Of a DNA stretch of 64,000 nucleotides, positions 5,994 through 36,128 are shown in pieces. How positions within the stretch are numbered: the stretch's first letter is position 1; each line of letters opens with the position of its first letter. Under the pieces are notes generated by a model. The model saw nothing but the letters and a program-made list of their open reading frames with translations. It did not search any database and was not told the origin of the DNA. The stretch is taken from the NCBI RefSeq assembly GCF_000483485.1, contig NZ_KI519609.1, forward strand, positions 1,889,460 through 1,953,459, written 5' to 3'. A program made the translations under genes and the position numbers. The stretch comes from Thiomicrorhabdus chilensis DSM 12352 (GTDB taxonomy: Bacteria > Pseudomonadota > Gammaproteobacteria > Thiomicrospirales > Thiomicrospiraceae).

Positions 5994-6737
5994 TTAACGA
6001 TTGTTATCTGACAGCGTAGAAGCCTTAGCTTCTTTAAGCTTTATTGCAAAACCATTACTATAGCGTAAATCATAAACTTGTGCTGATTTTCTAAAGCCAT
6101 TCTTTAAATCGGGGTAGGCGGCCAAAAACCGTTGAAATTTATGATGCTGATCTTGTTGGTCGAGAATCAGGGTCGGCCCATCCAGAATATGAATTTCCCA
6201 CACGCCGTTTGCCGTTTCTTGCAAACGCTCAACGGTCCAACCGATCTCATTCAACTTCTGCTGAAATTCCGCCAGCTTTGCCAACAGGCCTGCCGAATTT
6301 TCAATCCGTCCCTCCAGCCTGACGAAATGCTCAAACCTTTGCAAGTTATTGGGAAAAAACACTTCCCCCTTGTGGTTGACCAACCCGTCATTTCCCCAGC
6401 GCGCTACCGGATTCTGCTCGACGATACTGATTTTGAGCTGATCAGGCCAACTTCTTTTGACCACTGCCTGACTCACCCAATCCAAACGGACCAGATCGGC
6501 TTGAATCTTATTCAGCTCAACATCCCAAAAAGACTTCCCTAAATAGGGTTCAAGCACCTCATCCACCTGCGCCCTATCGAGTTCTTTAAGCTCCATGCTC
6601 AAATGAAACTCTTCTATCGGTCGCTTACTGCTGAGCTCCTGATGAAATAACAGCCAGATCGCAATGCCGAATAAAACCAACCCGAGACCACTCATCCACA
6701 AGAACCTGCGCCCCTTCATCTCAGTTTTTCCGTCCAA
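5994..6737 (-). CDS. ftsQ: Cell division protein FtsQ
   Basis: Single-pass inner-membrane protein of the FtsQLB complex. The 247-residue product has a short basic cytoplasmic N-terminus, one membrane segment (about residues 12-30), a POTRA domain (about 38-108) and the FtsQ beta domain. Family features include the WV..A.V.R.WP..L.I.V.E..P.ARW pattern around residues 75-115. It sits 27 bases after ddl and 21 before ftsA. One copy of the dispersed CAGGCCTG motif lies inside the coding region and encodes S-A-G-L. Confidence 0.93.
   Translation of the reverse strand: MDGKTEMKGRRFLWMSGLGLVLFGIAIWLLFHQELSSKRPIEEFHLSMELKELDRAQVDEVLEPYLGKSFWDVELNKIQADLVRLDWVSQAVVKRSWPDQLKISIVEQNPVARWGNDGLVNHKGEVFFPNNLQRFEHFVRLEGRIENSAGLLAKLAEFQQKLNEIGWTVERLQETANGVWEIHILDGPTLILDQQDQHHKFQRFLAAYPDLKNGFRKSAQVYDLRYSNGFAIKLKEAKASTLSDNNR
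6285..6302 (+). repeat. CAGGCCTG dispersed motif with tail, inside ftsQ
   Basis: CAGGCCTGCCGAATTTTC: full core, CCG, and an ATTTTC tail with one extra A. It lies inside the coding sequence of ftsQ. Confidence 0.8.
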
Positions 6738-33865: not shown

Positions 33866-35800
33866 CTAAAGCGAATCCAGCGTCTGATCGTGTGGTACAT
33901 TGCGCAATCTCAAAGCCTGCTGCATGACCTCTTTAAACACGGGGGCCGCCACCGAGCCGCCATAATAGATACCGCGGCCCGGTTCATCCACTACCGTCAC
34001 CATCACCATATCCGGGTCCGACACCGGCACAATTCCGGCAAACACCGACAAATACTGGTTCTGTTCGTAACCGCCTTGTTTGGTCTTATGCACGGTTCCG
34101 GTCTTGCCCGCCACCCGGTAACCCGATATCTGTGCTTTTGGCGCGGTTCCGCCTCGAGCGACCACTTTCTCCATCATCGACAAGACCGCATCAGCCGCTT
34201 CAGCCTTGACCACCTGCTGTTTCTGCGGAGCCTGGTCCAGCTTAAACAGACTCAAAGGCATGATCTTTCCTTGATTGGCAAACATCAAATAGCCATGCGC
34301 CAGATTCAACAGGTTCACACTGAAACCATAGCCGAAAGACGCCGACACCTGATCAAGCTCCTGCCACTGCGAAACCGGCTTCAAATAACCGGAAGCTTCC
34401 CCTGGCAAATACAAACCGCTATCTCGGTTGAAGCCCACATCCTTCCATAACTGCCACTCCTGTTCGGTGGTCAATTTGAGAGCGATTTTGGACGCCCCGA
34501 CATTACTCGATTTCTGAATAATCTCCACCGGTGTCAAGACCCCGTTATTATGCGTGTCGGTAATGCGATAGCCCTGCACCCTAATTGATCCGGGATGAGT
34601 GTCGATCTTTTCATCCACTTCGATTACGCCGGCATCCAGCGCTTTGGCCACGATAAAGGGCTTTACCGTAGAACCAGGCTCAATCAGATCGGACACCACG
34701 CGGTTTTTAATGGCTCTTCCGTGAAGCTGGGCGCGGTCATTGGGGTTATATCCTGGCAAACTCACCATCGCCAAAATCTCCCCGGTTTTAGCATCCAAGA
34801 CCACCGAGCTCGCCGATTTGGCTTGATGTTCGACCATCACTGATTTCAAGGCACGATAAGCAAAAAACTGAATATTCTTATCCAAGCTCAAGGTAATGTC
34901 CGAACCGGATTTGGCTGGCACCACATCCTTAACGAAATCAATCACCCTTCCGGCACGATCCTTAATGACCTGTTTCTGACCCGGTTTTCCTTTTAGCCAA
35001 TCTTCATAGGCCAGCTCCAAGCCTTCCTGACCATGATCATCGATATTGGTAAAACCCAATAAATGAGCACTGATCTCACCCGCTGGATAATAGCGTTTAT
35101 ATTCATCCTGAATGTATACGCCGTAGAGGTTCAAGTCTTCTATCTGTTTCGCCAATTGCGGTTCGATCGAACGTTTCAGGTAAACGAATCGACGTTTTGA
35201 AAACGCTTTGACTTTGTCTGCTATTCGGTTTGAAGGAATTTCCAGAAGAGTGGCCAACTTGGAATAGGCTTGCTGATAGCCCAACATCTGCTCACCATCC
35301 ACCCATACGGATGGAGAGTCCGAGCTTATGGCAATGACTGCTCCGGCATCTTTAGGAGTGAGAGCCATCTCCACCTTTTTCAGATAAATCCCCGGTAACT
35401 CGAGACTTTCGACCGCCTCAACAAGCTTGGCATCCTGAATCTGGCGAATAAAACTCAGTCTTTTATGGCGGTTCCGTTGAGCTAAATTCCTCAACTCAGA
35501 TTCTTGCAGGCCCATTAACTGCAAAAAACGTACATAGGACTGTTGATAATTGTACATCACCTTGGCGTCCACCCATACAGAGGCCATCGGCGTGCTTAAA
35601 GCCAGAAGATCCCCGTGGCGGTCGTAGACAGTACCTCGAGGTGCTGGTATATCAATTGTCCTGACCTGACGTTTACTGCCCTCCTCCTGAAGAAACGAAG
35701 ATTGCAGAATTTGCACATAAAAAGCGCGCACAAGAACGGCCATAAAGCCTAAAACAATCAGTGCAAACACCACCTTATCACGGCGCAATTTAGAGTTCAT
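33866..35800 (-). CDS. ftsI: Septal transpeptidase FtsI (PBP3) with duplicated N-terminal segment
   Basis: Class B penicillin-binding protein cross-linking septal peptidoglycan. The start is ATG 35800 (MNSKLRRDK), giving 644 residues and an 11-base overlap with ftsL; the longer frame to 35857 re-reads ftsL. TM is at about 10-28, then the PRGTVYDRHGD motif. SxxK is in EPGSTVKPF, SSN in KSSNVG, and KTGT in AGKTGT. A segment of about 78 residues (67-144) is repeated at 157-234, sharing SVWVD, YQQxY and L-x-G-x-Y-x4-E. This makes the protein about 70 residues longer than usual (570-590). Confidence 0.96.
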   Translation of the reverse strand: MNSKLRRDKVVFALIVLGFMAVLVRAFYVQILQSSFLQEEGSKRQVRTIDIPAPRGTVYDRHGDLLALSTPMASVWVDAKVMYNYQQSYVRFLQLMGLQESELRNLAQRNRHKRLSFIRQIQDAKLVEAVESLELPGIYLKKVEMALTPKDAGAVIAISSDSPSVWVDGEQMLGYQQAYSKLATLLEIPSNRIADKVKAFSKRRFVYLKRSIEPQLAKQIEDLNLYGVYIQDEYKRYYPAGEISAHLLGFTNIDDHGQEGLELAYEDWLKGKPGQKQVIKDRAGRVIDFVKDVVPAKSGSDITLSLDKNIQFFAYRALKSVMVEHQAKSASSVVLDAKTGEILAMVSLPGYNPNDRAQLHGRAIKNRVVSDLIEPGSTVKPFIVAKALDAGVIEVDEKIDTHPGSIRVQGYRITDTHNNGVLTPVEIIQKSSNVGASKIALKLTTEQEWQLWKDVGFNRDSGLYLPGEASGYLKPVSQWQELDQVSASFGYGFSVNLLNLAHGYLMFANQGKIMPLSLFKLDQAPQKQQVVKAEAADAVLSMMEKVVARGGTAPKAQISGYRVAGKTGTVHKTKQGGYEQNQYLSVFAGIVPVSDPDMVMVTVVDEPGRGIYYGGSVAAPVFKEVMQQALRLRNVPHDQTLDSL

Positions 35801-36128
35801 CGGGCTTTTCTTGTAAATAAATAGTCTGCAAATTATGATTTTTCTGAGATTTCTCAAACACCATATTCAATTTGGATTGAGCAATCTGTTCAATTCGGGC
35901 GGGGGAACTCAGATGCGTTTTTTCCAACATCAAACGCCCCCATTCCTCTTTCGCTTCAATGTTTTTTTTCAACGCCAGATAATAGGCGGTTTCTGTATGA
36001 CGGATTTCATGCTGCACCTGAACAATCGCCAACAGAGTCAGCAATATCACCAGCAGCAAGCTGAAAAGAAAAAACCCACGCCACCCGAATAAATTCAAGT
36101 GTGTGGGCTTGGGGAATCTTCTTAACAT
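35790..36128 (-). CDS. ftsL: Cell division protein FtsL
   Basis: Small bitopic protein of the FtsQLB complex. The 112-residue product has a basic cytoplasmic N-terminus, one membrane segment (about 17-39) and a periplasmic coiled-coil region (about 45-95). Identity rests on size, topology and its position directly before ftsI, as FtsL is weakly conserved. Its 3' end overlaps the ftsI start. ftsZ lies upstream instead of rsmH. Confidence 0.85.
   Translation of the reverse strand: MLRRFPKPTHLNLFGWRGFFLFSLLLVILLTLLAIVQVQHEIRHTETAYYLALKKNIEAKEEWGRLMLEKTHLSSPARIEQIAQSKLNMVFEKSQKNHNLQTIYLQEKPDEL

Follow-up and report, generated by a model that had tools for sequence, protein, structure and literature searches.

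The FtsI of Thiomicrorhabdus has a tandemly duplicated pedestal head, with probable strand exchange between the two copies

The pedestal of FtsI (PBP3), an enzyme essential for cell division, passes the activation signal from FtsQLB and FtsN to FtsW, and the isolated head sub-domain of this pedestal from E. coli reportedly bound none of the partners tried in affinity chromatography. In P. aeruginosa, FtsI contacts the FtsL helix through L64, P72-P78 and F151-P156 (PMC7614612), and in the E. coli models both FtsL and FtsN pack on FtsI V84-P87, R167 and Y168, i.e., on the two neck strands (PMC10390529). The E. coli head, crystallised alone as PBP3 88-165 (4bjq), comprises three antiparallel strands and three helices, and in these crystals it swaps β1 and a two-turn helix (residues 88-105) between molecules, an exchange which its authors deemed unlikely in the full-length protein (PMC4038516). 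In the subclass B5 PBPs, the head carries a 60-residue four-helix insert (PMC4038516). The literature searched contains no mention of FtsI in connection with Thiomicrorhabdus, nor of a duplicated PBP head.

The window analyzed here, a stretch of 64,000 nucleotides from the 2.44 Mb genome of Thiomicrorhabdus chilensis DSM 12352, contains an ftsI gene at 33866..35800 (minus strand, stop included) coding for a protein of 644 aa. Its ATG at 35800 overlaps the end of ftsL (35790..36128, minus strand; 112 aa, Pfam FtsL), and an alternative, longer start, a TTG at 35857, extends back into that gene. The open reading frame matches the Pfam Transpeptidase and PBP_dimer families, its best PDB matches are FtsI/PBP3 structures, and both orthology and the dcw gene order at the locus (mraZ-rsmH-ftsZ-ftsL-ftsI-murE-murF-mraY-murD-ftsW-murG) identify it as FtsI. 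Neither a second ftsI nor a second ftsZ was found in the genome, the second FtsI match being a distant PBP that covers residues 183-626.

Like the P. aeruginosa and E. coli proteins, with which it also shares its dcw position, this FtsI combines a single N-terminal transmembrane helix (residues 4-32, 35705..35791, minus strand; helical in the AlphaFold2 model), a pedestal of anchor and head (PBP_dimer, PF03717, E = 8e-26, split over two stretches) and a transpeptidase domain (residues 332-627, 33920..34807, minus strand; PF00905, E = 7e-71). The last displays the SxxK (S377xxK380), SxN (S431-S-N433) and KTG (K566-T-G568) motifs, which are invariant or almost so. The model aligns with P. aeruginosa PBP3 over 510 of 513 residues at 2.2 Å; what distinguishes it is an extra head of about 90 residues that is unaligned to any part of PBP3. 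The protein possesses the transpeptidase motifs, membrane helix and pedestal of a class B PBP together with two heads instead of one; a single head is constant among the other FtsI sampled, but does not define the family.

A sequence-only reading of the window had proposed that residues 67-144 and 157-234 of FtsI are tandem copies of one segment. Self-alignment recovers the same register, pairing residues 63-141 with 153-231 over 79 ungapped positions at an offset of 90, with 21 identities (27%). The BLOSUM62 score of this pairing is 117, as compared with a mean of 25.6 (sd 4.4) and a maximum of 48 over 1000 shuffles. Further, profile-profile comparison of the genus alignments of the two copies gives E = 1.1e-15, the copy 1 and copy 2 profiles match the single-copy heads of relatives with E = 1.8e-30 and 5.9e-35, respectively, and the P. 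aeruginosa PBP3 sequence aligns twice to FtsI over one and the same stretch of its own, once per copy. It is thus nearly certain that a segment of the N-terminal pedestal has been duplicated in tandem and in frame. Together with a head HMM (see below), these comparisons delimit copy 1 to residues 63-145 (35366..35614) and copy 2 to residues 153-235 (35096..35344), both on the minus strand; the copies are joined by a turn at residues 146-152 (35345..35365, minus strand) that is variable in the alignment, with 0-4 extra residues in relatives. The accompanying proposal that the protein exceeds the usual length by one copy holds in kind, but the excess is about 90 rather than 70 residues, FtsI of family members without other head inserts having about 541-559 aa versus 644 here. 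At the DNA level only 94 of 237 positions (40%) are identical between the copies, indicating that the duplication is old. That the repeat reflects chance similarity or an error of assembly or annotation is vanishingly improbable: nothing was found in its favor, and it is ruled out by the low DNA identity of the copies, by the decisive shuffle and profile statistics, and by the identical architecture of 31 independent genomes, several of them assembled in one to six contigs.

The duplicated unit, with a period of 90 residues, is the head sub-domain along with its two neck strands. Each copy alone matches the head of PBP3 structures, including that of 4bjq: the copy 1 profile retrieves 4bjq with E = 1.6e-4 and PBP3 with E = 2e-7, and the copy 2 profile retrieves 4bjq with E = 1.5e-11. 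In the AlphaFold2 prediction, both copies present a three-stranded sheet and three helices in the order of the head, at a pLDDT of about 90. As the unit amounts to an independently folding sub-domain plus its neck strands, its duplication in frame could have been tolerated.

Each of the 31 Thiomicrorhabdus genomes that yielded an FtsI match encodes a protein with two heads, and these proteins all align end to end; one further member of the genus (8% contamination) yielded no FtsI match and was left out of the counts. The two-head FtsI is therefore a trait of the whole genus and not of one genome. By comparison, a single head is present in every one of the 41 FtsI that were aligned from outside the genus, which represent six further genera of the family and 12 other families (the order-level search yielded the same 63 genomes as the family-level search). 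An HMM of the head, built from single-copy relatives only, finds two full-length domains in 31/31 of the two-copy proteins (i-E 1e-10 to 1e-29), and one domain in E. coli FtsI and in each of 20 long-frame FtsI from other families. The latter had been considered as hidden duplications, but with one head apiece their surplus is upstream frame. Likewise, FtsI from the other family genera and other gammaproteobacterial families sampled match the protein only from about residue 160 onward, equivalent to one head, and among the matches listed for 369 genomes sampled across the class, those outside the genus all begin at residue 157 or later. These observations bear out, for the sampled FtsI outside the genus, the earlier claim that other FtsI have one copy. 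In a tree computed without the head region, the two-copy proteins all lie beyond a single branch (SH-aLRT 85), requiring one change; the duplication therefore most likely arose once, before the diversification of the genus. No loss of the second head was seen among the 31 genomes.

Both copies are evolving under purifying selection and diverge at about the pace of a single head. In close pairs, dN/dS is 0.01-0.13 for copy 1 and copy 2, and at matched transpeptidase divergence their conservation is 0.56 and 0.49, respectively, versus 0.56 for the single head of sister genera; a second such comparison gives 0.68 and 0.63 versus 0.70. With such low dN/dS and conservation near that of single heads, both copies are functional parts of the protein as opposed to decaying remnants.

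The features of a canonical head are divided between the copies. Neck strand 1 (residues 65-71, LLALSTP; 35588..35608, minus strand), equivalent to E. coli FtsI V84-P87 (PMC10390529), is conserved only in copy 1, with 72% identity to single-copy heads against 14% for its copy 2 counterpart. Conversely, neck strand 2 (residues 232-239, DEYKRYYP; 35084..35107, minus strand), equivalent to E. coli R167/Y168 (PMC10390529), is conserved only in copy 2 (45% against 1% in copy 1), and β2 with its R-x3-P signature shows 49% identity in copy 2 against 12% in copy 1. This pattern, which is new here, indicates that copy 1 has retained the N-terminal edge of a canonical head, and copy 2 its C-terminal part.

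The structural predictions point in the same direction. The full-length AlphaFold2 model has a pLDDT of 90.3 and a pTM of 0.81; a model of fragment 58-243 (pLDDT 91.1, pTM 0.80) is free of bias from single-copy rows, as its input consisted of two-copy sequences only. Against the P. aeruginosa head (77-152), the fragment model superposes 73 residues at 1.4 Å, running from model residue 70 in copy 1 to residue 235 in copy 2, and against P. aeruginosa 65-160 it superposes 93-96 residues. The identities reported by the structural aligner (32 of 93, of 94 and of 96; 20 of 73) are reproduced exactly only if the match leaves copy 1 for copy 2 at residues 80-91, and no earlier switch fits. This switch point coincides with the hinge of the E. 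coli fragment swap. Additionally, helix α1 is predicted to be unbroken in copy 1 (79-96) and broken at residue 177 in copy 2, which would be the pattern expected from an opened hinge.

On the basis of the AlphaFold2 models and aligner identity counts, together with the mosaic conservation, strand exchange between the copies in a "bracelet" architecture is probable, as the edges are split between the copies and the model superposes as a composite. The outer, canonical head would then be composed of residues 63-89 of copy 1 (neck 1, β1 and the first half of α1; 35534..35614, minus strand) and residues 180-239 of copy 2 (α1b, α2, β2, α3, β3 and neck 2; 35084..35263, minus strand). The intervening residues 90-179 (35264..35533, minus strand), spanning copy 1 α1b to β3, the hairpin, and copy 2 β1 and α1a, would form a second, circularly permuted head; we regard this partition as fairly likely. 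The simpler picture favored by the sequence-only reading, i.e., two complete, closed heads stacked on the pedestal like beads on a string, is consistent with the presence of all head elements in order in each copy and with the match of each copy profile to the E. coli or Pseudomonas head over its full length. However, it fails to account for a structural match that runs from copy 1 into copy 2 and whose identity counts require copy 1 β1, for the loss of one canonical neck strand per copy and of the β2/R-x3-P signature from copy 1, or for the differing state of α1 in the two copies, and we consider it unlikely. Of the structural expectation in that reading, the repeated fold is thus present in the AlphaFold2 model, but the stacking of two copies is probably wrong in detail.

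Co-variation was considered as a proof of strand exchange and set aside. W76 of copy 1 varies with F205 of copy 2 (normalised MI 0.84, versus 0.21 for L115), strongly in favor of exchange, but its variation with Y139, likewise in copy 1 (0.65 versus 0.35), is what separate closed heads would give. As these signals are mixed and come from a single clade, they are taken as a hint only. The substitutions themselves (W76 to E, Q or I, and F205 to H or Y) occur in an identical set of six genomes within one clade of the genus. The swapped monomer of 4bjq is absent among the structural matches listed for the model.

The strand-exchanged arrangement has its closest parallel in 4bjq, a domain-swapped dimer of the same sub-domain in which β1 and the two-turn helix are likewise exchanged between copies (PMC4038516). 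In 4bjq, however, the partners in the swap are two crystallised molecules of an isolated fragment, whereas in Thiomicrorhabdus FtsI the swap is predicted within one chain and between diverged copies. A comparable topology is seen in the potato type II proteinase inhibitors, tandem repeats with out-of-register structural domains, where the N- and C-terminal parts form one domain and the inner part is circularly permuted (PMC2259423), as predicted here; these are unrelated proteins, and their architecture comes from solved structures while that of FtsI is a prediction. If strand exchange is correct, FtsI would offer a case from cell division in which tandem copies have settled into an architecture both nested and permuted, reached by a clear evolutionary route from a swap-prone domain.

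These considerations suggest the following scenario, which as a whole we judge to be rather likely. It starts with a tandem duplication of about 270 bp, in frame, which doubled the head sub-domain of the FtsI pedestal in the ancestor of Thiomicrorhabdus. Separate beads would not form; rather, copy 1 up to residue 80-91, comprising its first strand and half of a helix, would join the C-terminal part of copy 2, yielding one canonical outer head on an ordinary neck, and residues about 90-179 would close into a circularly permuted second head projecting from the α1 hinge of the outer one. Docking of the neck on the FtsL helix (and FtsN) would be retained once and unchanged: the equivalents of the E. 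coli contact residues are 68-71 in copy 1 and 236-237 in copy 2, which argues for a single, intact activation interface. In this regard, the region had earlier been taken to contact FtsW and the FtsQLB complex; contact with FtsL via the neck (and with FtsN in the E. coli models) agrees with the published structures and models, but FtsW is approached by the anchor sub-domain instead (PMC7614612, PMC10390529). The inner head, lying away from the neck, would enlarge the surface on the far side by about 90 residues. There, we infer, it most likely offers a further docking site or spacer to a divisome partner by which FtsWI activation is tuned.

Alternatively, the second head could lack a role of its own: the duplication would have been neutral when it became fixed in this lineage, and would be retained only because half of the canonical head resides in each copy. 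Since the canonical contacts are split between the copies, neither sequence copy could, on this account, be removed whole without harm; further, no change in a partner gene was seen, the FtsL lengths of two-copy and other genomes having overlapping distributions with no clear matching change. Against this, deletion of any internal 90-residue period should leave the canonical composite, restoring an ordinary head, yet none of the 31 genomes, nor any other sampled, has dropped such a period, and constraint on the inner part equals that on single heads. A second head without function therefore appears somewhat unlikely, and the preferred reading is that the inner head serves for docking or spacing. 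That Thiomicrorhabdus divides with an additional head at the FtsI pedestal shows how far the activation interface can be rebuilt and provides a natural test of head function.

In 13 sister-genus genomes, FtsI contains helical inserts of 22-40 residues in head helix α1, at the same site as the second head. As these inserts occupy the same helix, the α1 hinge could be viewed as a tolerated point of growth in the family. Both they and the B5 PBP insert resemble the second head in elaborating the same sub-domain; unlike it, they are foreign helical additions and not a second copy of the head. They were also considered as remnants of a lost second head, but show no similarity to the inner head (z -0.9 to 0.8). 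The α1b segment of the sister-genus FtsI is closer to copy 1 than to copy 2. A broader proposal, which we advance only tentatively, is that the permuted inner head of a nested, strand-exchanged FtsI might be a lineage-specific docking module for FtsWI activation, and that the α1 hinge might repeatedly gain such modules with the FtsL-binding neck being spared.

The dcw locus also shows peculiarities of gene order. The sole ftsZ of the genome (36214..37449, minus strand) sits between rsmH and ftsL and not downstream of ftsA. The order rsmH-ftsZ-ftsL is seen in none of 12 other gammaproteobacterial families, nor in E. coli, and recurs in all members of the family whose locus covers it (seven genera). 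Additionally, ftsQ (about 5994..6737, minus strand) lies distant from murG, with a chemotaxis receptor, thymidylate synthase and lgt intervening, and the dcw cluster is therefore split in the window.
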